A DNA stretch of 64,000 nt from assembly GCF_015694705.1 (NCBI RefSeq), contig NZ_JADQDR010000007.1:1-64000 (forward strand). Direction: 5' to 3'. The stretch comes from Pontibacter rufus (lineage in GTDB: Bacteria > Bacteroidota > Bacteroidia > Cytophagales > Hymenobacteraceae). Position numbers and translations under genes: made by a program. Each line of letters starts with the position of its first letter. The stretch's first letter is position 1. Below, one piece after another: positions 8,468-56,404 of the stretch. A model generated the notes under the pieces. The model was not told the origin of the DNA and searched no databases. It was given only the letters and a program-made list of their open reading frames with translations.

Positions 8468-8786
8468 CTTTTACGGGTTACTTTCCAATGCAAATTTCAG
8501 CAAATATGCTGGCAGAAAACATGATAATTGTCAGTTTAGAGGAGGAGAAATGTCAGTCTTGGGTCCAACCACTCTCAATCCCTCCTTATCTAAGGCGGGG
8601 AGCCTGCCTTTGCCAGCATAAAGTATAAATACTATAGTTATTTCTTTCTCTCCACAAAAGGGAAAAAAGCCATAAATACACTTAATAAATAGTATGCCTC
8701 AGTAGTAAACTCCCCTCCTTAGACAAGGAGGGGTTGGGGGTGGTTGGATTGCCGGTACTACGAAGCACACCTCCGACAAATCACTA
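8468..8786. other. Intergenic region with promoter and GC-rich repeat
   Basis: This 319-bp gap holds the hemA promoter (8491-8556). It also carries two inverted, imperfect copies of an intergenic repeat: one near 8562-8607, and one near 8707-8752 with its own CTCCTT-AAGGAG palindrome followed by a G-rich stretch. No coding frame is convincing. Confidence 0.55.
8491..8556 (-). promoter_or_regulatory. hemA promoter with tandem Crp/Fnr-type palindromes
   Basis: On the minus strand the -7 box GAAATTTG (8498-8491) fits (T/G)AnnTTTG. The proximal palindrome ATGATAATTGTCAG (8521-8534, plus-strand reading) starts exactly 36 bp upstream of the box. A weaker copy, AGGA-N6-TCAG (8543-8556), lies a further 22 bp upstream. 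The hemA start is 24 bp downstream of the box. Confidence 0.7.
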
Positions 8787-9848
8787 TTAATTCCGCATCC
8801 GTTTGAGCTTCTCCAGGTTCAGGATCGTGATTTTACTGCCGTGGCTGTCGATGAGTTTTTCATCTTTAAAGTCGGCCAGGGTGCGGATTACGGTTTCTTT
8901 GGAGGCGCCCACGATGCTGGCCAGATCTTCCCTCGAAATAACAACCTGCAACACATCCTGCTGTTCCTGTTTATACTGTTTCTCTACAAAAAGCAGCGCC
9001 TCGGCCACCCGTTTGCGCACCGAGTTGTAGGCCAGCCGCAGCAGGCGTTCCTCTCTTTCGGCTAGGTTATCCGACAGGATTTTGATGAATTTACTGGCCA
9101 CCAAACGGTTGTTGTGCAGCAGCAGGAAAAAGTCTTCTTTGGAGATAGTATAAATATCCGAATCCTCCATCACCATCGCCGATTCGCGGTAGGCTTTTTC
9201 CTCAATCAGATCAAGGTAGCCGATAAAGTCGCCGTCTTTGTACAGGTTGGTGATATACTCGCGGCCCTCTTCATTCGATTTATAGGTTTTTACTTTGCCT
9301 TTGTTCAGGAAGTATAACGCGTTGGGGTAGTTGCCTTCTAAAAACAGCGGCTGTTTCTTTCTAAAATGCTGTAGCTTTTGCTTGTCATATGTCAGCTGGC
9401 TGAGGTTCTCCTGCCCTTTGGCCTCTTGTATAAATTCGTTCAGACTTTCCGCATTTTTCTGGAATCCTGCTTTCAAAGCTTCATTTTTCCGCAGGCGCAT
9501 CTCCACCGCATCCAGCAGTTCCAGGTCGTCAAATGGTTTGATCAGGTAATCATCCGCGCCCAGGTTCATGCCTTTCCGGAAGTCTTCCTTCTCCGACTTG
9601 GCCGTTAAAAATATAAAGGGAATGCCGGCTGTTGCCGGGTTGCTGCCGAGCAGGTGCAGCACACCGTAGCCATCCAGTTGGGGCATCATGATGTCGCAGA
9701 TAATCAGATCGGGCAATTCTTTTTTAGCCAGTTCTACACCTGCTTTGCCATTTGCCGCTTCCAGTATATTATAGTTAGCCAGCGCAAGAATTTCGGCAAT
9801 ATTTTCGCGGATTTCCTGATTGTCTTCTATCAGCAGTATCTTTTTCAT
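8787..9848 (-). CDS. Response regulator fused to a Crp/Fnr-type DNA-binding module
   Basis: The 353-residue protein has a receiver domain at residues 1-120 (LLIEDNQEIREN, phosphorylatable Asp in DLIICDIMMP, Lys in LIKPFDD). A short helical linker follows, then a cyclic-nucleotide-binding-like beta barrel at about 150-265 and a Crp-type winged helix at the C-terminus. The recognition helix has SKETVIRTL, keeping the Glu and Arg that contact the TGA core in Crp and Fnr. No FNR-type cysteine cluster is visible. It overlaps by 4 bp the kinase gene 9845-11077, so the pair is co-translated and the kinase is the likely partner. It is a candidate regulator for the palindromes in this window; this is an inference. 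Confidence 0.88.
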   Translation of the reverse strand: MKKILLIEDNQEIRENIAEILALANYNILEAANGKAGVELAKKELPDLIICDIMMPQLDGYGVLHLLGSNPATAGIPFIFLTAKSEKEDFRKGMNLGADDYLIKPFDDLELLDAVEMRLRKNEALKAGFQKNAESLNEFIQEAKGQENLSQLTYDKQKLQHFRKKQPLFLEGNYPNALYFLNKGKVKTYKSNEEGREYITNLYKDGDFIGYLDLIEEKAYRESAMVMEDSDIYTISKEDFFLLLHNNRLVASKFIKILSDNLAEREERLLRLAYNSVRKRVAEALLFVEKQYKQEQQDVLQVVISREDLASIVGASKETVIRTLADFKDEKLIDSHGSKITILNLEKLKRMRN

Positions 9849-11077
9849 GAATTAGCGATTAGCGGAAAAACAATGGTGAAGGTAGTGCCTTTGTCCAGTT
9901 CACTTTGGTAGCTGAGCGTGCCCTCCATAATATCTACATACTTTTTTACGATGTTGAGCCCAAGCCCCGTGCCCTGGATATTGGTTACGTTCTGGGCCCG
10001 GAAAAAGGGCGTAAACAGGTGCGTTTTATCGGCATCCGGAATGCCAATGCCCTCGTCCTGCACCGTTATTCTGATGGCCTCATCGGTTGTTTCGGTGGTA
10101 AAGTATATGTTTCTGTCCTCGCCCGAATACTTGCTGGCGTTAGAGAGCAGGTTAAACAGAATATTTTTGAGCAACTGCCTGTCGAGGGTAATGATGGCTT
10201 TGTCGCGGTAGTTTTTGTAGTGGATGCGCTGGCCCGTTTTAAGGAAGCCCTGCATTTCGTCTGCCACTTCCGCTGAAAAAGCTACCAGGTCAAACTCTGA
10301 AGGCACGTTGTAAATCTTGCCCTCCTCGATGCGGCTGATGGACAGAAAATCGTTCAGAATGCTGGTCAGGTTGCTTACGGCAGATTTTATCCGGTCTACG
10401 TGCTTTTGCCGTTTGTCATCATCCTCGGTGGATTTATACTTGCCGATGAGCGAGGCGGAAGATAAAACGGTGCTGAGCGGCGTACGGAACTCATGCGAGG
10501 CTATGGTGACGAAGCGCGATTTGAGTTCGTGCAGTTCTTTCTCTTTCTGCAGAGCCTTGCGCACTTCCTGTTCGGCCTCGTACAGGCTCTTGTTGGTTTG
10601 CTCCAGTTTGCGGATGGCGGCACCCAATTCCTGTGTGCGCTCCTTTACGCGCTGCTCCAGTTCAGTATTCAGCCGCTGAATTACGGCCAGGCTTTTGGCA
10701 TGTTCTATACTATAGCGGATGGAGCGCTCCAGTTCGTTGGGGCTGATGGTACCTTTTACAATGTAGTCTAATGCACCGGCACGCATCGCTTTTTCGTCTG
10801 TTTCGCGGTCGCTTTGACCGGTGAGCAGAATAAAAGGCGCCATAGAACCCTTTTTCACCGCCTCCTGGATCAACTCCAATCCATCATGCGCCCCCAGGCG
10901 GTAATCTACCAGGTATACATCGTGCCGCTTTTGTTCGATTTGCGCCAGCGCCTCCCTAAAAGAACCCGCCCACTCAAGCAGGTAATGGCGACCTGGTATA
11001 TCCTCTATAATATCCCGGGTGATGATGTAATCGTCCTCGTCATCATCAACCAGCAGTATGCGGATTTTATCTTGCAT
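9845..11077 (-). CDS. Receiver-histidine kinase hybrid (REC-HisKA-HATPase)
   Basis: The 410-residue protein begins with a receiver domain (LLVDDDEDDY, Asp in DVYLVDYRLG). It continues through a coiled coil (about 135-190) to a HisKA domain with the phospho-acceptor ASHEFRTPLS and an ATPase domain with the N box NILFNLLSNASKY and G boxes DEGIGIP and GTGLGLNIV. There is no membrane segment or sensory domain, so it is cytoplasmic and takes its input through the receiver. The stop TGA overlaps the start of the REC-Crp gene (ATGA), which suggests one phosphorelay. Confidence 0.92.
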   Translation of the reverse strand: MQDKIRILLVDDDEDDYIITRDIIEDIPGRHYLLEWAGSFREALAQIEQKRHDVYLVDYRLGAHDGLELIQEAVKKGSMAPFILLTGQSDRETDEKAMRAGALDYIVKGTISPNELERSIRYSIEHAKSLAVIQRLNTELEQRVKERTQELGAAIRKLEQTNKSLYEAEQEVRKALQKEKELHELKSRFVTIASHEFRTPLSTVLSSASLIGKYKSTEDDDKRQKHVDRIKSAVSNLTSILNDFLSISRIEEGKIYNVPSEFDLVAFSAEVADEMQGFLKTGQRIHYKNYRDKAIITLDRQLLKNILFNLLSNASKYSGEDRNIYFTTETTDEAIRITVQDEGIGIPDADKTHLFTPFFRAQNVTNIQGTGLGLNIVKKYVDIMEGTLSYQSELDKGTTFTIVFPLIANS

Positions 11078-11635: not shown

Positions 11636-11690
11636 CTATACTTCTATCTTATGTCTTGTGTCTTGCTTCAAAAGTCCAGCGTCTAACTAA
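11636..11690. repeat. Dispersed intergenic repeat, GTCTTATGTCTTGTGTC type
   Basis: The motif CTTATGTCTTGTGTCTTG and its flank recur at about 44905-44950 and, in both orientations, at 48298-48395. All three copies are intergenic. Confidence 0.5.
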
Positions 11691-12130
11691 AGCTTTGGCA
11701 ATTCTACAATCTCGAACCAGTATTTACTCAGTGTTTTCATCACATCTACCAGGGAAGCAAACGTAACCGGCTTGGTAATAAAAGAGCTTACGCCCAGATC
11801 GTAGGTGCGGAGAATATCTTCTTCGGCTTTGGAAGTAGTTAGTACCACCACCGGAATCAGGCGCAGGTGCTCGTCCTGCTTTATTTCCTTCAGCGCTTCG
11901 CGGCCGTCTTTTTTGGGCATGTTCAGGTCCAGCAGAATAAGGCCCGGCGTAGGATACAGTGCCTTATCGGCAAACCGGCCCTGGTGGTGCAGGTAATCCA
12001 TCAGTTCCTCCCCGTTTTCCACGAAATGAATGTTGTTTTTCAGGCGGCTTTCCTCCAGCGCATCCTTTACCAGCATCCGGTCTTCGGCGTCGTCGTCGGC
12101 AATAAGTATAACTATCGTTTTTTTGGACAT
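11687..12130 (-). CDS. Single-domain response regulator (Rcp1-like)
   Basis: The 147-residue protein is a receiver domain alone: acidic pocket IADDDAEDRM, phosphorylatable Asp in LILLDLNMPKKDG, Thr in VVVLTTSKAEED and Lys in FITKPV. This Rcp1-like class partners with phytochrome-type and PAS kinases and has no DNA-binding output, so it probably relays phosphate or acts by protein contact. It follows the PAS kinase gene by 11 bp, which makes that kinase its likely partner. Confidence 0.93.
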   Translation of the reverse strand: MSKKTIVILIADDDAEDRMLVKDALEESRLKNNIHFVENGEELMDYLHHQGRFADKALYPTPGLILLDLNMPKKDGREALKEIKQDEHLRLIPVVVLTTSKAEEDILRTYDLGVSSFITKPVTFASLVDVMKTLSKYWFEIVELPKL

Positions 12131-12141: not shown

Positions 12142-13653
12142 CTATTCCTGTGGGTGTTTAAGTGCAAGCGTAATGATGAAACGGGTGCCTACGCCCGGCT
12201 GGCTGCTGGCAGTGATATCACCGCCGTGCCGGATAGCGATTTTGCGGCAAACAGCGAGGCCGATGCCGGAACCTGCATACTTCTGCCCCTCTAGCCGCTG
12301 AAAAATATTGAAGATGCGGTCCAGGTATTTCTCATCGAAGCCGATGCCGTTATCTTCTATATAAATCTCCGTTACCTCGTCGCCGGGGGTGGCGGTGAGG
12401 TGTGCCCGGCGCTGCAGGTTTTTGGCATAAATGTTTATGATGGGGCTCTCATCAGGCTTCCGGAATTTCATGGCATTGCTTAGCAGGTTTTGGAACAGCT
12501 GCCGGATTTGGGTTGGTTCAGCCTCAATTTCGGGTAGGGGCGAGCGAATTATCTCGGCTCCTGTCTGCTCAACAGTAACCTCCAGGTCAGAAATCACCTC
12601 CGACAGAATGTCATCCAGTTTCACCTTTACAAAGGGCTTCGACTTAGCCGTTACCCGCGAAAAGCCAAGCAAATCATTAATCAGGTTCTGCATGCGCGAG
12701 GCGGCATTCAGCATCCGGTCTACGTAGTCCTTGCCCTGCTCGCTCAGGTTATCATACTCTTTGGTCAGCAGCCTGTCGCCAAAAGCCTGTATTTTGCGAA
12801 GTGGCTCCTGCAGGTCATGCGACGAGACATACGCAAAGTCCTGCAGTTCGCGGTTGCTGCGCTCCAGCTCCGCGGCGTAACGGCGCAACCGCTCCTCATC
12901 CAGCTTTTGCTTCGTAATATCGTGCACAAAACCTGTGTATACTTTGCGATCAGAGAGTTGCACTTCGCTGATGCTCAGGTAAAAAGGGAAAACGCTGCCA
13001 TCCTTCCGCATTCCTGTCACTTCCCTGCCAATACCAATAATCCGTTTCTCCCCTGTCTCTTCGTAATGGCGTATATACCCGTCGTGACGGCTGCTGTCCG
13101 GTCCCGGCATCAGCATGTTGATGCTCTTGCCCAGCAGTTCCTCGGCATCATAATCAAACAGCCTGGCAGCCGAAGGATTTATCATTTCCATAATACCACG
13201 GTTATTGATGGTAATGATGCCGTCTACTGCCGCCTGAATGATAGAGTTAATCTTGTTTTCGCTTTCGCGCAGGGCCGCTTCTGTTTTTTTGAGCTCCGTG
13301 ATGTCGTGCACGATGCCGGTAAAAATCAGCTTATCCGGCAGTTCTACCTCACTTATACTTAGCAGGAACGGGAAAACGGTGCCGTCTTTCTTTTTGCCGA
13401 GGACTTCCCGGCCTTTCCCGATGATCTGCGCTTCGCCGGTGCGAAGATAGTTTGCAAGGTACTGATCATGGCGGCTGCGGTCGGGCTCGGGCATCAGCAT
13501 GCTGATGTTATGCCCGATAACTTCTTCCGCCTCGTAGCCGAATATTTTTGCTGCCGCCGGATTCATAGTCTCGACAATTCCACGGGTGTCAATGGTAATA
13601 ATCCCATCAATAGCCGTGTCGATGATAGCCTTCAGCCGCGACTTGTTTTCCAT
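12142..13653 (-). CDS. PAS-PAS sensor histidine kinase
   Basis: The protein has 503 residues when started at the ATG at 13651-13653 (MENKSRLKAI); a longer frame begins at 13779 but would run through a regulatory palindrome. Two PAS domains of the FixL type share GIITI-RGI-E-INPAAA-LF and the phrase MLMP-PD-SRHD, evidence of internal duplication. A coiled coil, a HisKA domain with SSHDLQEPLRKI and an ATPase domain (DNGIGFDEKY, GSGIGLAVC) follow. It has no membrane helix. FixL-like PAS domains may bind heme, but ligand residues cannot be confirmed here. It is divergent from the stress-protein gene at 13886. Confidence 0.92.
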   Translation of the reverse strand: MENKSRLKAIIDTAIDGIITIDTRGIVETMNPAAAKIFGYEAEEVIGHNISMLMPEPDRSRHDQYLANYLRTGEAQIIGKGREVLGKKKDGTVFPFLLSISEVELPDKLIFTGIVHDITELKKTEAALRESENKINSIIQAAVDGIITINNRGIMEMINPSAARLFDYDAEELLGKSINMLMPGPDSSRHDGYIRHYEETGEKRIIGIGREVTGMRKDGSVFPFYLSISEVQLSDRKVYTGFVHDITKQKLDEERLRRYAAELERSNRELQDFAYVSSHDLQEPLRKIQAFGDRLLTKEYDNLSEQGKDYVDRMLNAASRMQNLINDLLGFSRVTAKSKPFVKVKLDDILSEVISDLEVTVEQTGAEIIRSPLPEIEAEPTQIRQLFQNLLSNAMKFRKPDESPIINIYAKNLQRRAHLTATPGDEVTEIYIEDNGIGFDEKYLDRIFNIFQRLEGQKYAGSGIGLAVCRKIAIRHGGDITASSQPGVGTRFIITLALKHPQE

Positions 13654-13736
13654 AGCATTCACTGGAGTTTCTAAATTAGCTTTCCGTAAAAATAGGTACT
13701 TCTGGAAAGAATTACCAACGCTGCGGCTACAGGTTG

Positions 13737-13764
13737 CCGGATAATGATAATTGTCATTATCCGG
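13737..13764. promoter_or_regulatory. Long perfect palindrome between divergent PAS kinase and usp genes
   Basis: The arms 13737-13747 and 13754-13764 (CCGGATAATGA and its complement) are perfect, with six bases between them. The core ATGATAATTGTCAT (13744-13757) is the same Crp/Fnr-type box seen before hemA and the denitrification genes. It lies 84 bp before the kinase start and 122 bp before the usp start. No -7 box sits at the standard 36-bp offset, so it may act as an operator or from a remote position. Confidence 0.65.
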
Positions 13765-13885
13765 AGTGCCGGAAATCATAAGCGAAACTACCGGGAAAGG
13801 CTAATTTTACAGGCTCAAACAACCACTTAGGCTGGCAGTTTGAACCTTTGCGCTGATATTTTATTGCCTGACAAAGAAAGACTCC

Positions 13886-17882: not shown

Positions 17883-18842
17883 TTATTTAACAATTTCCTT
17901 CTCCAGTTCCACCGCTTTCGGGAACAGGATGTTGTTCTCGAGGTGGATGTGGCGGTGCAGGTCGTCTTCAAATTCCTGCAGCTTTTTAAAGGCAACGGTA
18001 TAGGTAGCGCAGGCATCAGCGGGCAGAGTATAGTTGCCGCTCAGTTCACGTATCGCTTCCATATCGTTTCCGGCTACCTCGTGCTCCATCTCCATCATGT
18101 TGATAGGATGCTGGATGGATCCAAAAGCAGGCTTATCGAGCTTTATGTTGCTCTTTTTCGCTTCGTCCAGCTGTTTGATGAAGGGGAAAAGCACGCGCTC
18201 TTCTTTCGGCATGTGGCTTTCCAGTTCGCTGGCCACATTGGCAAAGTGCCTGGCAATGTCGAACAGCTCGGGATGATTTTTGCCGTGCACACGGGCAATT
18301 TTAGAAGTATACTCATAAAGCGCCGGAATGGCCTCACGCACATACTTATGGTGCACGTTCACGATGTAATCGGCCAGGAAAGAAAGCTCCCAGCTGGCAT
18401 AATCGGTTTCGTTGGTGGTGTTGGCGTCGGGCAGGGCATTCAGTTCTTGTTCTACTTTATTCGGGTCCAGGCCTTTTTCTTCGCATACCTGTTTGATGGA
18501 TTTTTTACCGCCGCAGCAGAAATCAATGCCATACTTTTTAAACACCTGCGCCTTACGGAAATCTTTGGCTACCAGGTCGCCCACGGTGTCGCCGGCTTCC
18601 AGGTTCAGCTTGGTAATGAGCACTTCCCATACTTCGGGACCTTGCTCCAGGTACTCCCATTTAAAAATATTGCCGCGCTCACCCAGCAGCTGGTAATATA
18701 CCGGCTTGGGGTCGTGGTCGTTGTGGATGATGAAACCTTCGCCGCCCTGCAGGTTATCGAAACGGTCGAAAATGGTAGGGTGTTTTAAACGCGGTTCTAT
18801 TACCGTTACATCCAGAATCTCGATGGTTGCTGTATTCTCCAT
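17883..18842 (-). CDS. ric: Iron-sulfur cluster repair di-iron protein with N-terminal DUF2249 domain
   Basis: The 319-residue protein has three parts. Residues 1-80 are a DUF2249 domain (EPRLKHPTIFDRFDNL, GEGFIIHNDHDPKP). About 85-135 is the ScdA-N domain with YGIDFCCGGKKSI. The rest is a hemerythrin-type di-iron domain with NVHHKYVREA, HGKNHPELFDI, HMPKEERVLFPF, MEMEHEVAG and HRHIHLENNILFPKA. Ric/ScdA/YtfE proteins repair iron-sulfur clusters after nitrosative damage. The fusion with DUF2249 exceeds the usual 220-240 residues. A tandem-palindrome promoter lies at 18894-18959. Confidence 0.93.
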   Translation of the reverse strand: MENTATIEILDVTVIEPRLKHPTIFDRFDNLQGGEGFIIHNDHDPKPVYYQLLGERGNIFKWEYLEQGPEVWEVLITKLNLEAGDTVGDLVAKDFRKAQVFKKYGIDFCCGGKKSIKQVCEEKGLDPNKVEQELNALPDANTTNETDYASWELSFLADYIVNVHHKYVREAIPALYEYTSKIARVHGKNHPELFDIARHFANVASELESHMPKEERVLFPFIKQLDEAKKSNIKLDKPAFGSIQHPINMMEMEHEVAGNDMEAIRELSGNYTLPADACATYTVAFKKLQEFEDDLHRHIHLENNILFPKAVELEKEIVK

Positions 18843-19170
18843 GGTATTTGTTTTTGTCTTTTGAATAAGTTTAGCTGTAAATAATCAACGATGTAAAAGT
18901 ATAGAACCTCCCGCTTAATAAAAGAGACAAATGTCTTCTATGGAAATGATGTTCGTCATCTTTTAAGGAAAGGCTGAAGAAGAGGCTGTTACAAAACAAG
19001 AATTCGTAGGGGCAGGTTGCGACCTGTCCCTGCTATAAAACACCGCAGCAGGTATAGCAAATGGCTGTTGTTATAAAATCCTGTAAATTCTATAATTCTG
19101 ATTCAGACAAATTGAGGAACGATTGCCGGTGCACGATTGGGCAGGTTCCGACCCATCCTACGAAGGCTTT
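18843..19170. other. Intergenic region upstream of ric
   Basis: This 328-bp region contains the ric promoter (18894-18959), two GGGCAGGTT-CGACC repeat fragments (about 19010-19035 and 19138-19160) and an ATTCTGATTCAGACAAATT repeat fragment (19097-19115). No gene is apparent. Confidence 0.55.
18894..18959 (-). promoter_or_regulatory. ric promoter with tandem Crp/Fnr-type palindromes
   Basis: The minus-strand box TACTTTTA (18901-18894) resembles TAnnTTTG. A degenerate palindrome GAGACAAATGTCTT (18924-18937) begins 36 bp upstream of it. The strong palindrome ATGATGTTCGTCAT (18946-18959) is 22 bp further up. The spacing equals that of the other promoters, but here the strong box is the distal one. 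Confidence 0.55.
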
Positions 19171-20643
19171 TTATACTTCGCTATGCTGTAACTCCGATAT
19201 GGCTTTGGGCTGCCTGGTTATACTTTTACGCCTTAAGAACTGCGCTGCGAAAAACAGCAGGATTCCGAGAGGCAGCGCAATACTAATGCTGAACAAAAGC
19301 CCGAAATAATGCGGCAACATGCCGGCACCGGCCCAGTAAAGCACGCCCTGCAGAAAAAGGAGCGCTTCGCTGCCTATGAGTCCAATTAAAAAGAGGCTAC
19401 TGCCCCAGCGGCTCATACTTGATTTAAAGTTCAGCCAGCCCCGCTGCGCGAAAAAGGCAAAAACAATCAGGCTCACAAAGCCCAGCAATACCAGGTGCAG
19501 GTAGCCAATCACAAAGTTGCGCTGCCGGTACGCCAGGTCGGCCATGTAGGGGAAAGCCGTGGAGAACTGCATCAGTATTTTCAAAATAAAGGCCAGTGCG
19601 GACAGCAGCAGCGCTCCCCGGCTCCAGTTATCAAACAAACCGAAGAAAGATTTGCGTAAAGGATAAAGCAGGCGCACCAGCAGTACCAGACCCACCACCT
19701 GCCCGAAAGCTGCCGCCCCGCCCACTATGTAAAGTATAGCAGCGGGTTTTGTCCAGAGTACCGAAAGCACGTAAGCAGGCAGGCAGGACCAGAACATCCA
19801 CCGGAAAAAAGCAAGCGCCGGCTTCCGGTTAAAACGCAGGTCATACTTCTCGAGCAGCCAGCACAGCAGGCCCAGCACGGCAAACGTAAACCAGCCGTTG
19901 TATTGGAAGTGCAGGTAAAAATAAATGGCGTTAAAGTATAAGCTGTCGCCAATGTGGCCGGTAGCCATAATCGGGCCCATGGCCCAGGGCCCCAGCGTGG
20001 AAAGCCCTAGAAAGAAGAGGGCGGCACGTATAAATTTAAAGGAGAAACCATGCGGGCCCTGACTCAGGTTCAGATCCTTGGCATCGCGCAGAAACTGGTA
20101 GATAAACCAATAGCTCAGCAGGATGTGCAGCGTGGAGAAAGTGATGGAAAACAAGGCGTAGCCCTGCAGCGGAAAACTCACCAGCATGCCTGCCACTGCC
20201 CCCTGCGACAGCCAGAATTGCCGGGCGTATACTTTTTTACGCTGCACTTCAGGTGGCAGGTAAGCATACAGCAACGCTACAAAAAGTGCCGAGTACAGCC
20301 AGCCCAGCAAAGCCACATGCGAGTGCCCGTGCAGTAAAAACTTATAGTTGATGGCCGCAATGGGCGCCACAAACATCCAGCGCAGCAGCAGGCCCAAACA
20401 GGCCACTACCACCAGGTTTGCCAGCGCTACCAACAACCAATTACGTTTTAAAGCAAAAGGCACCAACTGTTTTTCTACCCGCTTCAGGCCCTGCAAATCC
20501 AGTTTGGTGTAGCCAATCTGCTCTTCGGTCTGTTCCGGTCCTGTTGTTTTCTGCTGCCTTACCAGTTCCCCCATCTCGCTTCTGTATGCCTCATAAGAGT
20601 GCGGGTTTCGCATCGTCGGGGCTGATGTTGTATACAAATTCAT
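19171..20643 (-). CDS. Heme-copper-oxidase-like (NnrS-like) multi-pass membrane protein
   Basis: The 490-residue protein has a hydrophilic N-terminus of about 65 residues followed by about twelve helices. HGHSHVALLGW in the first helices and GYLHLVLLGFVSL near residue 380 are histidine motifs like those of the NorB/CcoN and NnrS families, but a full CuB site is not visible. It is a second, distinct relative of the protein at 15004-16311. The promoter has the palindrome at the standard position (20661-20704), so it probably responds to NO or low oxygen. The Met at residue 11 is another possible start. Confidence 0.72.
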   Translation of the reverse strand: MNLYTTSAPTMRNPHSYEAYRSEMGELVRQQKTTGPEQTEEQIGYTKLDLQGLKRVEKQLVPFALKRNWLLVALANLVVVACLGLLLRWMFVAPIAAINYKFLLHGHSHVALLGWLYSALFVALLYAYLPPEVQRKKVYARQFWLSQGAVAGMLVSFPLQGYALFSITFSTLHILLSYWFIYQFLRDAKDLNLSQGPHGFSFKFIRAALFFLGLSTLGPWAMGPIMATGHIGDSLYFNAIYFYLHFQYNGWFTFAVLGLLCWLLEKYDLRFNRKPALAFFRWMFWSCLPAYVLSVLWTKPAAILYIVGGAAAFGQVVGLVLLVRLLYPLRKSFFGLFDNWSRGALLLSALAFILKILMQFSTAFPYMADLAYRQRNFVIGYLHLVLLGFVSLIVFAFFAQRGWLNFKSSMSRWGSSLFLIGLIGSEALLFLQGVLYWAGAGMLPHYFGLLFSISIALPLGILLFFAAQFLRRKSITRQPKAISELQHSEV

Positions 20644-20660: not shown

Positions 20661-20704
20661 CAAGTTTAATCTTATACAGCCGCCTTGTAAATGACGCTTA
20701 TCAT
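20661..20704 (-). promoter_or_regulatory. Crp/Fnr-type palindrome and -7 box of the 20643 gene
   Basis: ATGACGCTTATCAT occupies 20691-20704. On the minus strand TAAACTTG (20668-20661), one base off TAnnTTTG, starts exactly 36 bp downstream of it. The gene starts 18 bp after the box. Confidence 0.65.
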
Positions 20705-20759: not shown

Positions 20760-20773
20760 ATGATATAAGTCAT
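20760..20773. promoter_or_regulatory. Second palindrome, upstream of the unknown gene 20871-22685
   Basis: ATGATATAAGTCAT is a full match to the box consensus and lies 98 bp before the start at 20871. No good TAnnTTTG element sits 36 bp downstream of it; the nearest is TACCTTGC at 20819. The box may act from a different distance or serve as an operator. Confidence 0.45.
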
Positions 20774-20870
20774 GCCGGCAGCTGTTGCTGCTCATTCAGG
20801 GGCACCCTCCTCCCCACCTACCTTGCCATGCTTTCAAACTGCAACCACAACACATCTTAAATATTGCCAC

Positions 20871-22685
20871 ATGTACCCAAACTCCCCACACACCTTCCAC
20901 ATCCCCGTTATGGGCCTGGCTTTTACCGTTGATTCTCCTTTAAAAGTAGCCCGCTTTGGCATTTCGTCGGTTGTTTCGGTGGGCGACGACAGCCTGCTGG
21001 AGCAGATGCGCGCTCACTACAGCCAGCAGTACCAGCGCACCTACACACCCATTACCATCGACCAGGAAGATTACCGCGCCCGGCGCATCACGACTTACCT
21101 CAACCTGCTGGATAACCTGGTACAGGAACAGGTACACGGCCTCCGGCAGCAGGATTTTATACCCGGTTCTGATCTTACCACATACTTTGAGTTGCTGCCG
21201 GATAGCTCGCCTTTGCAGGCTTTATACTTACAAATGCGGCAAACCGTGGATGCGGAGCAGAAGCACCATCTGCAGCAGGCGCTGCGCGAGGCCGTTGTGC
21301 CCGGGAGTATCGACATCAACATCATGACCAAGCTCGACAAAACAAATTATGCGAAAAGCGGGGAGCCGCTGCCAGCCGAGTATTCGGATGCGCTGGCGGC
21401 GCTGCGTGGTTTTGCCCATAGCACAGTTCGTGCTTCGGTTGTTTTTTCGGCCGGGATGAACATGCGGCTGTATAGTTACCTGGAGCAGTTCCCGTGCTTT
21501 TTCCCGGATAAAAAGGGTACGTCCGAAAAGCAGATCATCATCAAAGTAAGCGATTACCGTTCTGCCTTTGTGCAGGGTAAGATCCTAGCTAAAAAAGGAA
21601 TCTGGGTATCGGAGTTCCGGATAGAGTCGGGATTGAACTGTGGCGGCCATGCCTTTGCAACGGATGGTTATCTGCTGGGACCAATACTGGAGGAGTTTAA
21701 GCAGAACCGGCAGGCCATGCGTTCGGAGCTCTATAGTATGTGCAGCGCGGCACTGGCTGGCAAAGGTTTACCTGTTTCACAAAATCCGCCCGTCCAACGC
21801 ATCACCGTGCAGGGCGGACTGGGCACAGCGGAGGAAAACGCGTTTATGCTCCGCCACTATGAACTGGATGCCACCGGCTGGGGAACGCCCTTCCTGCTGG
21901 TGCCCGAAGCCACCACCGTAGATGACGACACACTAGCGAAACTTGTGCAGGCTACATCTGATGACCTGTACCTGAGTCCTATTTCACCTTTGGGAGTTCC
22001 ATTCAATGCCCTGCGCGGCACATCCAGCGAACAGCAGAAACAGGAGCGCATTGCCAAAGGAAAGCCGGGCAGTCCCTGCATCAAAAAGCACCTGGTATCA
22101 AACACCGAATTTACCAGCGAGCCCATCTGCACTGCTTCGCGCAAATACCAGCGCCGAAAATTGGTGCAGCTGCAGGCACAGAACTTAGCTCCCCATGTAT
22201 ACCTGGCCGAAGAAGCCAAAGTGCTGGCCAAAGAGTGTCTCTGCGATGGTTTGGCAAATGCCGCGCTTCAACAGCTCCGGATCGGCAAAAAAGCCGCCTC
22301 AAATGCTGTTACCATTTGCCCTGGTCCTAACCTGGCCTTTTTCTCGGGCGTGTTCAGGTTGCAGGAGATGGTAGACCACATCTATGGCCGCTTTAATGCC
22401 CTTAACCAAACGTATCGCCCGCACGTGTTCATAAACGAGCTGAAAATGTACATCGATTACTGGAAAAACAAGAAAGCCGAGCAGCTGGAAACACTCACCG
22501 ACAAACAGCAGAAATATCTGCAAAGCTTCTGGCAAAACCTGCAGGAAGGCATCAGCTATTACAAGCAGTTACTGCCCGCCCTATTTGCCGATCAGCTGGA
22601 AAAGCAGGTTCTAGTACTGGATGAGTTGCTGGAAGCAGAAGATCAACTCTGGCTGGCACGGCTAAAAGAAACGGGTATAGTATGA
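20871..22685 (+). CDS. Cys-rich conserved protein of unknown function in the NO/denitrification cluster
   Basis: I do not recognise this 604-residue protein. The start MYPNSPHTFH at 20871 is preferred over an upstream ATG at 20772 that overlaps a regulatory palindrome. No signal peptide or membrane helix is seen, so it is probably cytoplasmic. Cysteines occur in LNCGGHAF, SMCSAAL, GSPCIKKH, PICTASRKY, KECLCDG and TICPGPN, more than expected for a cytoplasmic protein, which suggests a metal or Fe-S cluster. Phrases such as GGLGTAEEN and TGWGTPFLLVPEA recall flavin-dependent TIM-barrel enzymes, but this is a weak impression. It is divergent from the NnrS-like gene and lies upstream of norB on the same strand, with boxes of the same regulon before it. 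Confidence 0.7.
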   Translation: MYPNSPHTFHIPVMGLAFTVDSPLKVARFGISSVVSVGDDSLLEQMRAHYSQQYQRTYTPITIDQEDYRARRITTYLNLLDNLVQEQVHGLRQQDFIPGSDLTTYFELLPDSSPLQALYLQMRQTVDAEQKHHLQQALREAVVPGSIDINIMTKLDKTNYAKSGEPLPAEYSDALAALRGFAHSTVRASVVFSAGMNMRLYSYLEQFPCFFPDKKGTSEKQIIIKVSDYRSAFVQGKILAKKGIWVSEFRIESGLNCGGHAFATDGYLLGPILEEFKQNRQAMRSELYSMCSAALAGKGLPVSQNPPVQRITVQGGLGTAEENAFMLRHYELDATGWGTPFLLVPEATTVDDDTLAKLVQATSDDLYLSPISPLGVPFNALRGTSSEQQKQERIAKGKPGSPCIKKHLVSNTEFTSEPICTASRKYQRRKLVQLQAQNLAPHVYLAEEAKVLAKECLCDGLANAALQQLRIGKKAASNAVTICPGPNLAFFSGVFRLQEMVDHIYGRFNALNQTYRPHVFINELKMYIDYWKNKKAEQLETLTDKQQKYLQSFWQNLQEGISYYKQLLPALFADQLEKQVLVLDELLEAEDQLWLARLKETGIV

Positions 22686-22780: not shown

Positions 22781-22824
22781 ATGATCTCTGTCATTTTTAA
22801 GCCAGCATGCTTGCCGGACCTTTG
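22781..22824 (+). promoter_or_regulatory. norB promoter with Crp/Fnr-type palindrome
   Basis: ATGATCTCTGTCAT (22781-22794) starts exactly 36 bp before GACCTTTG (22817-22824). A weak AAGA-N6-TCTC copy lies 22 bp upstream at 22759-22772. The leader to the norB start is about 120 nt. Confidence 0.7.
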
Positions 22825-26227: not shown

Positions 26228-26293
26228 ATGATGAAGATCAGTGGGTAGTATGACCAGCGTCATCCTGCAGACAGCAGCCCTGCTATACCTTTG
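26228..26293 (+). promoter_or_regulatory. nirK promoter with tandem Crp/Fnr-type palindromes
   Basis: The -7 box TACCTTTG (26286-26293) is a full match to TAnnTTTG. The proximal palindrome ATGACCAGCGTCAT (26250-26263) starts exactly 36 bp upstream. The distal ATGATGAAGATCAG (26228-26241) starts another 22 bp upstream. If transcription starts about five bases after the box, the proximal centre is near -41.5, the class II activator position. Confidence 0.78.
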
Positions 26294-29460: not shown

Positions 29461-29787
29461 CAGGTAAAATCTGACTATTAAAAGATCGTGGGAATTCTGA
29501 GCCGTATTTAAGGAGCCCATAGCTCAGCTATACTTCATGGCTTTCTGCTCGGTTATACTTCAAAAAGCTTAGCTTGCTAGTACGGCGTGTTAAATATTCC
29601 AGCGCCCTATACCGGGTATAACCGTCCCTTACAATATAACAGCAACGCGCTAATAGTTGCGAATGGAAGAAGTGCTTTATATTGTACGCATGCCTGTTAA
29701 AGTAGTATAAAAGCCCCGGAGTGACGGATGTCATTTTTTTACCGGCTTTGATGTTGCAACTTTGATGCAACATCAAACATAATAGAT
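29461..29787. other. Intergenic region upstream of hmp
   Basis: This 327-bp region ends with the hmp promoter (29721-29764). The rest is AT-rich with several TATACTT words and no credible gene or terminator hairpin. Confidence 0.5.
29721..29764 (+). promoter_or_regulatory. hmp promoter with Crp/Fnr-type palindrome
   Basis: GTGACGGATGTCAT (29721-29734) starts exactly 36 bp before CAACTTTG (29757-29764). The hmp start codon is 24 bp downstream of the box. No second palindrome is seen 22 bp upstream. Confidence 0.7.
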
Positions 29788-32681: not shown

Positions 32682-32711
32682 ATGATTCTTATCCCTTTTA
32701 ACATTTTGCTG

Positions 32712-37286: not shown

Positions 37287-39167
37287 CTATTTTTCGTTTG
37301 CGAAGTCTACCAACTCGTATTCCCCGTCATTTAATTGCCGGATAGCCGTATCGTTGATGTTCACCGTTTTGCGCGGATTTATCATGCGGTACATGTTAAA
37401 GGCGAAAATCAGGTGCGATGTCCACATCAGGGAGCCCCCGATGGCACGCCACAGCCAGTAAGGTGCCATCAGCACCACGCTGTCGATAAACGCTTTTCCG
37501 CCTTCCAGCCAAAACAAGCCTCGCAGCGTGCCGCCCAGCATCAGCGGAATAGTATAAAACATCATCCCCACAAAAGCCATCCAGAAGTGAATGCCCACGG
37601 TAATCAGCGGTGGCTCCTGGCCGGTGAGGCGGGGCACGATGGCGTAAATGCCGCCCCACAAAAAGAAAGCGATGATGCCATACATGGTCAGGTGCGAGTG
37701 CGCTACCGTAAAATCGGTGAAGTGCCAGATAAGGTTGGTGCTGCGGAAAGCTTCGGCCGTGCCCTGCAAAGAACCGGTAAAGTAAAAGATGATGCCTACC
37801 AAAAAGAAAGGCAAGGTATAACTGCCCGATACTTTATGCCAGGAGCCTTTAAAGGTCATCAGGAAGTTGGTGGTACCCGAAATAACCGGAATGGCCATAC
37901 CTGCGCTGCCCACAATAGCCACCGTTTGCAGCGACCACGGAATGGCGCTGAACACAAAGTGGTGCGAACCGATGAGGGTATAAAACAGTATCTGCGACCA
38001 GAAGGCAAGTATTCCCAGGCTGTAGGAGTAAATCGGTTTGTTGAGCTGTTGCGGCAGGTAGTAGTACACCAGGCCCAGCGTGAAAAGCATAAACCACATA
38101 CCTACGCCCTGGTGCATATAATAGCCCTGCACCACGGTTTCGCCGAGGCCGTTTTGCCAGTAAGGAATATAGGCCACCAGCGAGATGACAATCGTGAACA
38201 TGATGGCCGCAATAATGTACCAGTTCGACACGTAAATTTCTCTGGTTTTGCGGTGGGCCACTGTTCTTAAAAAGTTAAACAGCGTGATGATGAGCCCGAT
38301 GCCGAACAAAAGCTGAATCGGCCAGATATACTCGCGGTACTCACCGCCGCCATTGTTGATACCCGCCATGAGCGAAATAGTACCGAATACCACCGCTGCA
38401 TTAATGAGGACGAGCGTCCACCAGCCGGCTTTTAAACTATGGATTTGAATGTTGCTGACGCGCGGCACCACATAGTAGCCCAGCCCCAGCATCGCCAGCG
38501 ACGACCAGCCCCAGAACACGGCATTGGTGTGTACCGGTCGCAACCTGCCAAAGCTCAGCCAACTCAGGTGGTCGGCATCGGGCGCCACGAACTTGATGCC
38601 CACATACTCGCCCACCGAAGTGCCGAAAACGAGCCAGAAGGTGGCTGTGCCCAGAAACCAAAGTATAAGCCGGCTGAGTTTCGGGTCGATACCCGGCCTT
38701 TTAAGGGCGTGGCGCTTGGCCTCTATAAAGCGGATGTTGGCTTGCTCGTTGATGCCGCTCAGCAAACCTTTGTCATCTTCGGGTGAGAAAGGGCCGGAGA
38801 GTTCCTGTCCGCTGAGGTGGTATTCGCGGTGCTCCCGGTGTTTGTTCAGTTCCTCCAGTTGCTCCTCGTTCAGGGTTTTGAGGTAGGCCGCAAAGCAGGT
38901 GGCCTCATCGGTGTCTTTGCGGGCCTGAATGTTTTTAAACAGGGCGTTTGCTTTCACCACCACCAGAAAAAGGGCCGCGACGAGCGGTATCACCAACAGG
39001 GTAATGGTAATGATGATGCCGGGCATACTCATCAGGCTTTCGGTTGTTACGTTATCTGCCTGCGCCGATGCCGCGGTGGTAGCGGCCAAACAAAGTAAAG
39101 CCACGAACAAGGCCCGGCGCAGCGGCGGTAACAAAGGCCATGTCCGGGTGTGGGAAATTGCTTTCAT
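37287..39167 (-). CDS. Alternative cbb3-type oxidase subunit I (CcoN-like)
   Basis: The protein has 626 residues from MKAISHTRTW; another ATG lies 11 codons upstream at 39200. The N-terminus has a signal-like helix, a second helix and a soluble stretch rich in charged residues (about 75-155) absent from ordinary CcoN. The core keeps RLRPVHTNAVFWGW, the CuB histidines in YYMHQGVGMW and GSHHFVF, KPIYSYSLG and the heme ligands in TVAHSHLTMYG. No ccoP follows, so this is a two-subunit variant. NO reductase activity cannot be excluded. No Crp/Fnr-type box was found upstream. Confidence 0.87.
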   Translation of the reverse strand: MKAISHTRTWPLLPPLRRALFVALLCLAATTAASAQADNVTTESLMSMPGIIITITLLVIPLVAALFLVVVKANALFKNIQARKDTDEATCFAAYLKTLNEEQLEELNKHREHREYHLSGQELSGPFSPEDDKGLLSGINEQANIRFIEAKRHALKRPGIDPKLSRLILWFLGTATFWLVFGTSVGEYVGIKFVAPDADHLSWLSFGRLRPVHTNAVFWGWSSLAMLGLGYYVVPRVSNIQIHSLKAGWWTLVLINAAVVFGTISLMAGINNGGGEYREYIWPIQLLFGIGLIITLFNFLRTVAHRKTREIYVSNWYIIAAIMFTIVISLVAYIPYWQNGLGETVVQGYYMHQGVGMWFMLFTLGLVYYYLPQQLNKPIYSYSLGILAFWSQILFYTLIGSHHFVFSAIPWSLQTVAIVGSAGMAIPVISGTTNFLMTFKGSWHKVSGSYTLPFFLVGIIFYFTGSLQGTAEAFRSTNLIWHFTDFTVAHSHLTMYGIIAFFLWGGIYAIVPRLTGQEPPLITVGIHFWMAFVGMMFYTIPLMLGGTLRGLFWLEGGKAFIDSVVLMAPYWLWRAIGGSLMWTSHLIFAFNMYRMINPRKTVNINDTAIRQLNDGEYELVDFANEK

Positions 39168-39350
39168 GCGATTTGTTTTGTTTAAAAGAACCTGTTTCAA
39201 GTCGGTATTAAATCTTAAAAGGACAACTTTATCTTAAATATGAGTATAAAAAAAAGGCCTGCACCGGCCATCCCCTGCCAGCCGGGTAGCTGCCTGTTGT
39301 GCAAGTATAAAAGGTAGTGTTGCGCTGTTTTCATGTGCTTTTTAGCTGAA

Positions 39351-39653
39351 TCAGGCAGTTGCATGGAAGCGCAACTTCTGCGCAATTTCAGATGTCAGAC
39401 TACTGGAGTACATGCCATAGCCGTTTACCAGGATGCCTTTCAGGCCGTTGTAAGCTTCCACGCCATACACAATGGCTTCGTCGGCCGGGTCGGAGTCGCC
39501 CTCGAAACGGTAGCACTCGGTTATCTCAAATTCGTTTGCCCCGAACTGGTCGGTGTGGCACACCAGGCAATTGTCCTGGAGGTTAAAATCGATGGCATAG
39601 CCCCGTTGCTGAAGCCCCTGCACTGCCTGCGATACTGTTTCAAAATGATGCAT
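39351..39653 (-). CDS. CLxCH-domain protein (standalone)
   Basis: The 100-residue protein is nearly the same as the N-terminal part of 31433-32170 (FNLQDNCLVCHT, ECYRFEGDSDPADEAIVYG, LKGILVNGYGMYSSS). The CxxCH-like motif and the GYGMYS turn are the shared core. No signal peptide was seen. It lies upstream of the alternative oxidase gene on the same strand, 180 bp away. The common database label of phosphoribosylpyrophosphate synthetase is not supported by any of that enzyme's motifs. Confidence 0.72.
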   Translation of the reverse strand: MHHFETVSQAVQGLQQRGYAIDFNLQDNCLVCHTDQFGANEFEITECYRFEGDSDPADEAIVYGVEAYNGLKGILVNGYGMYSSSLTSEIAQKLRFHATA

Positions 39654-39779
39654 AACACGCTCTTTTTACTGCCTCTCTCCTTCCGGCAAATTGGCGGCCG
39701 CCGGACCGGCTTTCATAAACTGACAAAGCGCGCCTGCGCCATCTGCCATTTTCATAAAAGTAGAAGCCAGGCCTAAAAT

Positions 39780-39825
39780 AAAGAATGACTTCTATCAGCC
39801 CGAAAACTGATAAAAGTCATTCTTT
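39780..39825. terminator. ackA terminator hairpin
   Basis: The arms 39781-39798 and 39807-39824 pair over 18 bp with one mismatch around an 8-base loop. On the minus strand the stem is followed by TTTATTTT. It lies 130 bp after the ackA stop. Confidence 0.75.
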
Positions 39826-46489: not shown

Positions 46490-46555
46490 CAAAATTCTAT
46501 ATTTTGCCCTTGGCTAAAGATGACGGAGGTCATTTCTGGAGGTGATTGTCGTCAG
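46490..46555 (-). promoter_or_regulatory. ccoG promoter with tandem Crp/Fnr-type palindromes
   Basis: The -7 box GAATTTTG (46497-46490, minus strand) lies exactly 36 bp from the palindrome ATGACGGAGGTCAT (46520-46533). A second box GTGATTGTCGTCAG (46542-46555) is 22 bp further upstream. The arrangement is the same as at ccoNO and ccoI. Confidence 0.75.
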
Positions 46556-50652: not shown

Positions 50653-50718
50653 CAAAATTGAGCAAGTGCCGCTTCTGAAAAGATGACGGAAGTCATGTTC
50701 CGGGGTGATTGATGTCAG
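50653..50718 (-). promoter_or_regulatory. ccoNO promoter with tandem Crp/Fnr-type palindromes
   Basis: The -7 box CAATTTTG (50660-50653, minus) lies exactly 36 bp from ATGACGGAAGTCAT (50683-50696). GTGATTGATGTCAG (50705-50718) is 22 bp further up. The sequences AAAAGATGACGGA-GTCAT are almost identical to those at ccoG. Confidence 0.78.
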
Positions 50719-53710: not shown

Positions 53711-53776
53711 CAAAAGTAATTTGACACGATGGCCTAAAAGATGATGAAGGTCATGGTTGTGGGTGATTATCGTCAG
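53711..53776 (-). promoter_or_regulatory. ccoI promoter with tandem Crp/Fnr-type palindromes
   Basis: TACTTTTG (53718-53711, minus) matches TAnnTTTG and lies exactly 36 bp from ATGATGAAGGTCAT (53741-53754). GTGATTATCGTCAG (53763-53776) is 22 bp upstream. The distal box is at the same time the proximal box of the divergent plus-strand promoter. Confidence 0.78.
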
Positions 53777-53806
53777 TAGGAAAAGGGATGGGCGGCTATA
53801 CCTTTG
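53763..53806 (+). promoter_or_regulatory. Plus-strand promoter of the candidate small RNA
   Basis: TACCTTTG at 53799-53806 is a full TAnnTTTG match and starts exactly 36 bp after the start of GTGATTATCGTCAG (53763-53776). This equals the geometry of nirK, norB and hmp. No start codon for a credible gene follows. Confidence 0.68.
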
Positions 53807-53811
53807 TTCTA

Positions 53812-53933: not shown

Positions 53934-54041
53934 TTTTGAATCAGGATTTACAGGATTTGTCTGAATCATGATTTTCAGGATTAATGGATGGACAGGATGT
54001 GAGGATTAGAATATGATAATGTTCCTGTTTCAAGTTTCCTC

Positions 54042-54479
54042 TTACTACCGCAAGTTTGAGCGCAGCGGTAACTTGTGGTTGCATATGATGCCAGTTTGTA
54101 ACTGGGGTAAGTATTCATCTGAATCAGGATTTATAAGATTAAAAGATGAACAGAATTATACTTTAGACTTACTCTTGTAAGCTATGCAACAGACACATTA
54201 GCCAAGTGCAGAACGTGACGATTTTTTGTTTGAGCGTCAGCGAGTTCAAAATCGTCTTGATTCTTTTGCTTACTTTTCTCATCAAGGAGAAAAGTAAGGC
54301 CTAGCCGGCGAGGCGAAAGCTGATTAGAAGACTTGATTGTGAAGTATAGGTTAGGTCTGTATTTAAAAACATCACCTTACTTCAGCAATCATACTTATCA
54401 GTACCTATACTTACGCCAGTTACAAACTGGCATCATACGCAACCACAAGTTACCGCTGCGCTCAAACTTGCGGTAGTAA
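54042..54479. repeat. Inverted-repeat element with 73-bp arms
   Basis: The arms 54042-54114 and 54407-54479 are complementary with two mismatches in 73 bp (key phrases CCGCAAGTTTGAGCGCAGCG and GATGCCAGTTTGTAACTGG). The 292 bp between them contain a perfect 12-bp hairpin CTTACTTTTCTC (54269-54280 with 54287-54298) and a GACGATTTT-AAAATCGTC pair (54217-54256). Arm-like sequences also occur at 44820-44888 and 50800-50865. No transposase is present. Confidence 0.7.
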
Positions 54480-54631: not shown

Positions 54632-56002
54632 TCATATCGCTTTGCTGAACACCTGTTCCCCTACTCTTTCGGAGTGCTGCAGCTTTTGGTCGAAGACCAT
54701 GCAGATGTTGCGGATAAAGGCTTGGCCCAGAGTGGTTACTTGCAGGGAGGTTTTAGTGCAGGCAATCAGGCCTTCGGCTTCCATTTGTTGCAGTTCAGTT
54801 TGCCCGGCTACACCAATGAGTTGAAGCAATTCTTCGGTCAGTTGCAGCCCTCCTTTGCAGGCGATGCTTAAAATAGCCTCTTTCAGCAACAGGTCTTCGT
54901 CTGTTAAAAAGTGGCCTTTCAGTACGGCCAATTCACCCTCTAAAACTACTTCTTTGTAGGACTCAACGGTCTTCTTGTTTTGCATGTAGGCATACTTGGC
55001 ATCGCTGATGGAGGACGTGCCGAGGCCAATCATCAGGTCCGTCTGGCAGGTGGTGTAGCCCATAAAGTTGCGGTGCAGCTCTTTGCTTTGCAGGGCTTTG
55101 CAGAGGGTATCGTGTGGCAGGGCAAAGTGGTCCATGCCGATATCGGTGTAGCCCAATGCCTTAAATTTTTCCAGGCCCAGCTCATACAGCGCACGCTTTT
55201 CCACGTTGTCGGGCAGGTCTTTTTCGGTATAGCTGCGCTGGCCGGGACTCACCCAGGGCACGTGGGCGTACGAGTAAAAGGCAATGCGGTCGGGCATCAG
55301 CGTCGCCACTTTGTCAATGGTTTCGCCTACACTTTTCAGCGTCTGGTAGGGTAGGCCGTAAATCAGGTCGAAGTTCACGGATTCGTAGCCAATGCGGCGG
55401 GCTTCGTCCGTAACGTGCTTTACGTTTTCGTAGGGCTGAAAGCGGTTGATGGTGAGCTGTACTTGCAGGTCGAAGTCCTGGATGCCGTAGCTTACCCTTC
55501 TGAAGCCCAACTCATAGAGCGTTTGCAGGTGCTCGGTGGTGGTATTGTTGGGGTGGCCTTCAAAGCTGAACTCCTTTTCAGGATGCAGTTCGGCACCGGC
55601 ATAGAGGCGTTCCAGCAACAACCGCAGGTTCTCGGGACTGAAAAAAGTGGGCGTGCCGCCGCCCAGGTGCAACTCGCGGATGATGGGCTTCTCGGGGAAC
55701 TGCGCCAGGTATAGTCCCCACTCGGCCAGTATGGCCTCGATGTAGCCGCCTTCTACGCCATGGTTTTTGGTGATACGCTTGTTGCAGCCGCAGTAGGTGC
55801 ACAACTTTTCGCAAAACGGCAGGTGCAGGTATAAACTGATGCCTTTGGTGGCGTTCGACTCGGCAAAAGTGCGTTTTACTACCTGCAGCCACTGGCTGAC
55901 TTCCGGCTTCTCATCGTCCCAGAACGGAACGGTGGGGTAACTGGTGTAGCGCGGAGCGGGTACGTTATACTTTTGTACTAATTGTTCTTTGTGCGTGTTC
56001 AT
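54632..56002 (-). CDS. hemN: Oxygen-independent coproporphyrinogen III oxidase
   Basis: The protein has 456 residues from MNTHKEQLVQKYNVPAPRYT (56002); a frame extending to 56227 would overrun the promoter and has an unlikely N-terminus. The radical-SAM motif is YLHLPFCEKLCTYCGCNKRI. The substrate-specific HemN features GGGTPTFF and PYENVKHVT are present. It makes protoporphyrinogen IX without oxygen, needed for heme when oxygen is low. The promoter (56069-56134) joins it to the same regulon as hemA. Confidence 0.95.
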   Translation of the reverse strand: MNTHKEQLVQKYNVPAPRYTSYPTVPFWDDEKPEVSQWLQVVKRTFAESNATKGISLYLHLPFCEKLCTYCGCNKRITKNHGVEGGYIEAILAEWGLYLAQFPEKPIIRELHLGGGTPTFFSPENLRLLLERLYAGAELHPEKEFSFEGHPNNTTTEHLQTLYELGFRRVSYGIQDFDLQVQLTINRFQPYENVKHVTDEARRIGYESVNFDLIYGLPYQTLKSVGETIDKVATLMPDRIAFYSYAHVPWVSPGQRSYTEKDLPDNVEKRALYELGLEKFKALGYTDIGMDHFALPHDTLCKALQSKELHRNFMGYTTCQTDLMIGLGTSSISDAKYAYMQNKKTVESYKEVVLEGELAVLKGHFLTDEDLLLKEAILSIACKGGLQLTEELLQLIGVAGQTELQQMEAEGLIACTKTSLQVTTLGQAFIRNICMVFDQKLQHSERVGEQVFSKAI

Positions 56003-56404
56003 GGTGTGCGGCCATTTTGTTTTTCGAGCTGCCTCCCCAACCCAAGTGGCTGGCTTACATTTCAGCTGCAAAATTGGCCACGGGCAGGCCGCCGGCAAAT
56101 GATACACCGCAGCCCCGCAGGTGACTTTCGTCATTAATGGCTGCTTCTGCAGGAATCTCGATACGGCAGAGCAGAAACAGAAAAGCAATTGTTTGGATAA
56201 GGCGTAGCCTAAATTTTCTATAACCACAAAGAGGCATTCGGCACTGGGTTATCTATCGCCCTATCTGTTCTTCTGCAAGAAACAATGGCTGTCTATAAAA
56301 ACCTTCCAATAAAACATTGCAAGGTTTACTCTCTCAGGCCACCGCTTGTAGTGTCCTTCATACTTATTAAACCTATCTACCTATAAACAAGTACCGAATA
56401 ACAA
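56003..56404. other. Intergenic region upstream of hemN
   Basis: These 402 bp contain the hemN promoter (56069-56134). The remainder up to the Nudix gene is AT-rich without a gene, hairpin or repeat that I recognise. Confidence 0.5.
56069..56134 (-). promoter_or_regulatory. hemN promoter with tandem Crp/Fnr-type palindromes
   Basis: The -7 box CAATTTTG (56076-56069, minus) equals that of ccoNO. A degenerate box ATGA-N6-GCAG (56099-56112) is 36 bp upstream, and the good box GTGACTTTCGTCAT (56121-56134) is 22 bp beyond. As at ric, the stronger box is distal. Confidence 0.6.

Follow-up and report, generated by a model that had tools for sequence, protein, structure and literature searches.

At class II promoters of E. 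coli, the palindrome recognized by CRP or FNR adjoins the promoter and is centred at -41.5. The primary sigma factor of Bacteroidota is unusual, and to our knowledge little is known about how activators act on it. Other related systems are the FixL-FixJ-FixK cascade of rhizobia and Caulobacter (PMC4999443, PMC9104804) and the regulons of DNR, NnrR and HcpR, with TTGATnnnnATCAA as the DNR box and GTAACnnnnGTTAC as the Bacteroides-assigned motif of HcpR2 (PMC1274295). As for promoters, the TAnnTTTG box of Flavobacterium psychrophilum is reported at -12 to -5 (PMC9723704); for B. fragilis a TTTG around -33 has been deduced, but none could be recognized in F. johnsoniae (PMC7366714). Here we describe a stretch of 64,000 nucleotides of Pontibacter rufus (contig NZ_JADQDR010000007.1, positions 1 to 64,000; hereafter, the window), where palindromes TGA-N6-TCA precede -7 boxes NAnnTTTG by exactly 23 base pairs (bp; the gap) at promoters of cbb3 oxidase, heme and nitric oxide (NO) genes, and where RR-CRP, a receiver joined to a Crp/Fnr-type protein, is encoded as a candidate regulator.

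A preliminary description of the window listed eight such promoters. Each palindrome was found at the coordinates given there, and the distance of 36 bp from palindrome start to box start, in gene orientation, holds at all eight, with TAAACTTG instead of NAnnTTTG at the gene ending at 20643. The numbers listed there as boxes are in fact positions of palindromes, and hemA reads CTGACAATTATCAT in gene orientation. For pta, a good -7 box (TACCTTTG, 32 bp ahead of the start) and no palindrome nearby were found, as had been stated. The palindrome-plus-box observation at eight promoters is confirmed and is stronger than first stated. Second palindromes at five promoters, the recurrence in other genomes and the candidate regulator, all described below, had been overlooked, as had two sites: one at 39785-39798 with the box TACTTTTA, and the hemN upstream region, with a perfect distal palindrome, a proximal copy with one mismatch and CAATTTTG at the expected distance. 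The sites are as follows.

8491..8534 (-), hemA promoter: palindrome 8521-8534, box GAAATTTG at 8491-8498
20661..20704 (-), promoter of gene 19171-20643: palindrome 20691-20704, box TAAACTTG
22781..22824 (+), norB promoter: palindrome 22781-22794, box GACCTTTG at 22817-22824
26228..26293 (+), nirK promoter: distal palindrome 26228-26241, proximal 26250-26263, box TACCTTTG at 26286-26293
29721..29764 (+), hmp promoter: palindrome 29721-29734, box CAACTTTG at 29757-29764
39755..39820 (-), tandem site of the second oxidase-like locus: distal 39807-39820, proximal 39785-39798, box TACTTTTA
46490..46555 (-), ccoG promoter: distal 46542-46555, proximal 46520-46533, box GAATTTTG at 46490-46497
50653..50718 (-), ccoNO promoter: distal 50705-50718, proximal 50683-50696, box CAATTTTG at 50653-50660
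53711..53776 (-), ccoI promoter: distal 53763-53776, proximal 53741-53754, box TACTTTTG at 53711-53718
53763..53806 (+), possible divergent promoter reusing the distal ccoI palindrome: box TACCTTTG at 53799-53806, gap 23
56069..56134 (-), hemN upstream region: distal 56121-56134, degenerate proximal TGC-N6-TCA, box CAATTTTG at 56069-56076

The exact arrangement (TGA-N6-TCA, 23 bp, NAnnTTTG) occurs eight times in the window, while 200 dinucleotide-preserving shuffles of the window, taken as the chance level, yield 0.03 matches on average and one at most. The eight matches are seven of the previously listed sites and a match on the + strand at 53764; the 20643 site is outside this count because its box has CTTG. 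Among gaps from 0 to 60, gap 23 gives eight matches and gap 45 (23+22) six, with single matches at gaps 3, 4, 11 and 13. The spacer sequences are unlike one another though the gap is constant. Chance origin is ruled out by the shuffles, and copying of one promoter by the differing spacers.

In the whole 5.03-Mb genome the exact arrangement is found 13 times (four times for the control with the pattern read backwards), and eight of these matches fall in the window, which makes up 1.3% of the genome. With a stricter palindrome, TGAY-N4-RTCA, and the gap left free between 18 and 26, 13 of the 14 matches use gap 23; with one mismatch allowed, the box TAnnTTTG and gap 23, there are 19 matches (control 5), ten of them in the window. 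The five exact matches outside the window precede genes for a bacterial-type globin (contig C3), a type III polyketide synthase and a ccmC-like protein (both C11, the latter gene about 240 bp from its site), a lactamase-fold/rhodanese protein, read as a persulfide dioxygenase, and TauE (both C17). The preliminary description had proposed asking whether such hits fall before respiratory genes; these five targets are mostly, but not only, redox or respiratory. The polyketide synthase, with its exact site at L020 (G000:C11) 7899-7941, is an unexpected target. On C17 (L022, G000:C17, 6801-9146), two exact sites with common GTCACTGT surround a separate Crp-type gene, which lies beside the lactamase-fold/rhodanese gene and TauE and whose product is perhaps a sulfur-responsive regulator using the same geometry.

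These promoters carry the TGA-N6-TCA palindrome of class II Crp/Fnr-dependent promoters, and the Flavobacterium box position of -12 to -5, applied to the fixed gap, would place the palindrome centre at -41.5. Both this geometry and the constancy of the gap across the 80 loci and 149 genomes described below support the earlier assignment to the class II activator position, so that the palindromes probably occupy this position; from it we infer activation by the bound protein and the positions of transcription starts. In the logo built from 79 distinct sites out of the 86 matches in the 80 loci, positions -33 to -30, after the palindrome, are rich in T (65, 82, 67 and 53%), while position -12 holds G in 58% of sites and T in 25%, the box often being without the consensus first T; these percentages are not independent, because many of the 79 are hemA sites, that is, one family (hemA accounts for 48 of the 86 matches).

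Five promoters, those of nirK, ccoG, ccoNO, ccoI and the second oxidase-like locus, have a further palindrome exactly 22 bp upstream of the first, which would be centred at -63.5. Such 22-bp pairs occur at five places in the genome, every one in the window (control 1). Among palindrome pairs at most 80 bp apart in the 80 RR-CRP loci, 24 have a spacing of 22 bp, four of 23 bp, and five other spacings are seen once each. Class-wide, tandem pairs with spacers of 6-14 bp number 299 in 94 of 149 genomes (backwards control 18), and among the 75 pairs listed the centre spacing is 22 bp in 50 and 23 bp in 15. A tandem pair with the gap-23 box precedes ccoNO in all 22 same-genus genomes compared, our own included; no tandem pair was found at ccoNO in the eight loci from other families of the order. 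Six named Pontibacter loci also have a tandem ahead of ccoG, together with a gap-23 site. Across 51 distinct tandem sites, the sequence tendency is CTGA[T/C]..[C]A[A]TCAC for the distal palindrome and TGAC-N4-GTCAT for the proximal one. The second palindromes at the oxidase and nirK promoters are best explained as putative cooperative or combinatorial sites.

To follow the arrangement beyond this genome, the best 80 of 165 confirmed stretches with relatives of RR-CRP were kept as loci (1.52 Mb). Pontibacter comes first (80-89% identity), then Rufibacter, Adhaeribacter, Cesiribacter and metagenome-assembled genomes of Saprospiraceae, Flavobacteriales and others. Gap 23 gives 86 matches here, every other gap from 8 to 40 gives 0 to 9, and the backwards control five; 65 of the 80 loci carry a gap-23 match. 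Where hemA follows RR-CRP within 3.5 kb (46 loci), the exact site is always present (46/46). The gene for REC-HK, a receiver-histidine kinase, adjoins RR-CRP in 65 loci, and a FixL-like gene lies upstream in 57 (L055 and L093 were counted as being without RR-CRP, its frame not being called there though the DNA match exists). The 86 matches were assigned to hemA (48), ccoG (6), FixL-like (4), RR-CRP (3), REC-HK (2) and ccoI (2), the rest to other genes or none. Because sites precede the FixL-like, RR-CRP and REC-HK genes, this suggests that the signalling genes may be autoregulated. In two norB loci, L125 and L130 (unturned and not used), a gap-23 site lies about 1.5 kb upstream, beyond the 600-bp range applied to norB.

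In 149 genomes of the class (Bacteroidota, as judged by named relatives), the pattern TGAY-N4-RTCA-N23-NANNTTTG has 997 matches in 140 genomes, with 58 for the backwards control, while gaps 24-33 pooled yield 1638, or 164 per gap. The 74 genomes with a full-length RR-CRP have 9.3 sites on average vs 4.1 in the other 75 (Mann-Whitney p 5.6e-10; per Mb p 2.1e-7; all uncorrected for ancestry). One match at a contig edge and one split match were taken into the 74, and four genomes with matches to the Crp domain only were left out of them.

A further comparison covered eight other genomes, where a site was considered promoter-like if intergenic with a same-strand open reading frame starting close by. 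This holds for 28 of 36 gap-23 sites (all that exist there) vs 10 of 36 control-gap sites, the latter being the first listed per genome, not a random sample, and possibly including true gap-24 sites. Downstream of the 28 are FixS (3), cytochrome c, MbnP and rhodanese (2 each), and COX2, ScdA_N, hemerythrin and Usp (one each); the 10 control-gap genes include COX2, Usp and a sub-threshold Sdh_cyt once each. Unrelated families follow the gap-23 sites too, aldehyde dehydrogenase, desaturase and glyoxalase among them.

The cluster contains the following signalling genes.

8787..9848 (-), RR-CRP: receiver, cNMP_binding and HTH_Crp_2 domains, candidate regulator
9845..11077 (-), REC-HK: receiver and histidine kinase, overlapping the RR-CRP gene by 4 bp
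11687..12130 (-), single-domain receiver
12142..13779 (-), FixL-like kinase: two heme-PAS-like domains, start uncertain

The RR-CRP gene is inside the cluster, next to hemA and with the FixL-type kinase genes upstream. Its product has the phospho-acceptor set of a receiver (D52, T82, K104) and the best HTH_Crp score in the genome, and contains a single cysteine, C51, and thus no Fe-S cysteine set; an Fe-S FNR, with four cluster cysteines, is rejected as the identity of RR-CRP. This regulator is not a separate NarL-type FixJ, as its receiver is followed by cNMP_binding and HTH_Crp_2. Each of the two PAS domains in the FixL-like protein has matches among FixL heme PAS domains of solved structure. 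SRHD and IIGIGR are kept in PAS 2 when it is aligned with solved FixL, and the sequence of PAS 1 contains SRHD and IIGKGR. By counting, we take the kept residues to be BjFixL H200 and R220, the proximal His and distal Arg. A perfect palindrome, ATGATAATTGTCAT, is found at 13744-13757, close to the called start of the FixL-like gene and without NAnnTTTG at gap 23. Further Crp-type proteins are encoded on C17, C7 and C2, and cNMP-binding matches on C18 and C20; an HTH_Crp match on C14 was rejected, being GntR-like by eye. As other Crp-type proteins are present, RR-CRP is the best candidate and not a proven one; judging from its domains and location, it is most likely the protein acting at these sites.

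Several neighbours of the listed sites deserve mention. The true start of hemN is probably downstream of the open reading frame start used, because the family match begins at residue 80. The second oxidase-like pair consists of a COX1-like gene (37287-39200) and a FixO/cytochrome c gene (36213-37232); about 555 bp separate the tandem site (39785-39820) from the called COX1-like start, and a small open frame (39354-39665) comes first. The divergent site at 53763-53806 has no clear gene downstream, only a frame of 55 amino acids (54013-54180) lying in the intergenic stretch, and is possibly a promoter of a small RNA or small protein, or a chance occurrence. The 19171-20643 (-) product is a multi-pass membrane protein with HGHSHVALLGW; neither its gene nor the divergent one at 20772-22685 (+) gave a match in NCBIfam and Pfam scans at the thresholds used. 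Ahead of a ytfE/RIC-like gene (17883-18842, -), a palindrome at 18946-18959 lies 10 bp off a GACATTTG box, with no box at gap 23; this position would suit repression. Beside a second RIC-like gene (32804-33532) there is an Rrf2-family gene (32244-32714, -), whose product is possibly an NsrR-like NO regulator.

The observed sequence, spacing, conservation, gene neighbourhood and domain content lead us to infer binding, phosphotransfer, activation, an oxygen signal and start sites. Together these make up one reading, in which a fused FixJ/FixK-like regulator, RR-CRP, would act as class II activator on primary-sigma promoters of Bacteroidota, with a probability of about 75%. The palindromes would be Crp/Fnr-type operators at -41.5 of these promoters, where a dimer would make contact with RNA polymerase, the -33/-7 promoter itself being weak. 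RR-CRP would be a FixJ-like receiver joined to a FixK-like Crp part and phosphorylated by the overlapping REC-HK, and the FixL-like heme kinase would inform this route, directly or via the small receiver. When oxygen falls, the cbb3 oxidase, heme and NO genes would be switched on, with another dimer two helical turns upstream (-63.5) at ccoG, ccoNO, ccoI, nirK and the second oxidase-like locus.

Several observations weigh against this reading. The comparison of RR-CRP with site number ignores ancestry, and genomes without RR-CRP still average 4.1 sites; therefore, the same geometry is used by further Crp/Fnr proteins. In 34 of the 80 loci, close relatives (L038-L040, L044) included, hemA is not found after RR-CRP. 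Outside the genus, a gap-23 site precedes ccoNO in one of eight loci from other families of the order. At norB the site is kept in only 6 of 17 relatives, our own included (within 600 bp, loci turned). Finally, another Crp-type gene, on C17, lies between two of the five exact matches beyond the window. Alternatively, the promoters could be of class II with another Crp/Fnr protein (that of C17, C2, C7 or C18) as the main activator, given the further Crp-type or cNMP-binding proteins, the C17 gene between its two sites and the sites in genomes without RR-CRP. We consider this unlikely, as RR-CRP is encoded inside the cluster, adjoins hemA in 46 of the 80 loci and has the top HTH_Crp score, while an additional CTGT follows the palindrome at both C17 sites and at the ccmC-like site, a hint that another protein acts there. 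At the tandem promoters the two palindromes might bind different Crp/Fnr proteins, e.g. RR-CRP proximally and a second regulator distally, which is compatible with the main reading. We hold this variant less likely than not: the distal and proximal tendencies differ and other Crp-type proteins exist, but TGA-N6-TCA is common to both palindromes (by definition of the search), many of the 51 tandem sites are related ccoNO promoters, and one protein binding side by side is simpler.

Repression, with the sites being operators of a protein that blocks the promoter, is highly improbable. The palindrome does abut the -33 region, and the one before the ytfE-like gene is close to its box; still, a repressor needs no fixed gap, and both the exact -41.5 placement at the other promoters and the frequent lack of the consensus T in the box suit activation. 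The probability of coincidence or recent duplication of one promoter is negligible: the clustering of genomic matches in the window would agree with it, but the spacers differ at a fixed gap, shuffles almost never produce the arrangement, and it recurs in 140 of 149 genomes.

The rule of an operator, 23 bp and NAnnTTTG can be read from sequence and predicts low-oxygen and NO genes, their transcription starts and the regulator involved. We give even odds to an extension of the main reading to the class sampled, where a FixJ-FixK fusion phosphorylated by a heme FixL relay would dock exactly at -41.5 on promoters with weak -7 boxes and run low-oxygen and NO respiration, 22-bp side-by-side dimers tuning the cbb3 genes. 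Such a system would amount to an activator code for Bacteroidota that is general and legible in the sequence; few codes of this kind have been described in the phylum. The component parts are of known kinds; what appears new is how exactly they are arranged on promoters of Bacteroidota, how widely this recurs, the tandem at 22 bp and the fusion within the regulator. A literature search, with most subscription papers outside its reach, found no account of such an arrangement or fused regulator.

The palindromes, probably centred at -41.5, adjoin the promoter as in E. coli class II CRP and FNR promoters, from which they differ in the sigma factor and the -7 box and in having a T-rich -33 region in place of the -35 hexamer. 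TAnnTTTG-like -7 boxes and a T-rich -33 are shared with the Sigma-ABfr promoters of Bacteroides and Flavobacterium (PMC7366714, PMC9723704), but here the box is often without the first T and is tied to an operator at a fixed distance. Crp/Fnr-type palindromes ahead of nirK, norB and other NO genes resemble the DNR, NnrR and HcpR regulons (PMC1274295), whereas RTGAC-N4-GTCAT dominates here; this comparison is one of motifs and target genes, not of orthology. With the FixL-FixJ-FixK cascade the locus shares a FixL-type heme-PAS kinase, a Crp/Fnr regulator without the Fe-S cysteine set and a TGA-N6-TCA-type box ahead of cbb3 and heme genes. It differs in that the receiver and the Crp/Fnr part are in one protein, the half-site flank is usually not TTGA, promoters are of the TAnnTTTG type and sites are in 22-bp tandems, which suggests a shortened, fused counterpart of the rhizobial chain in another phylum.

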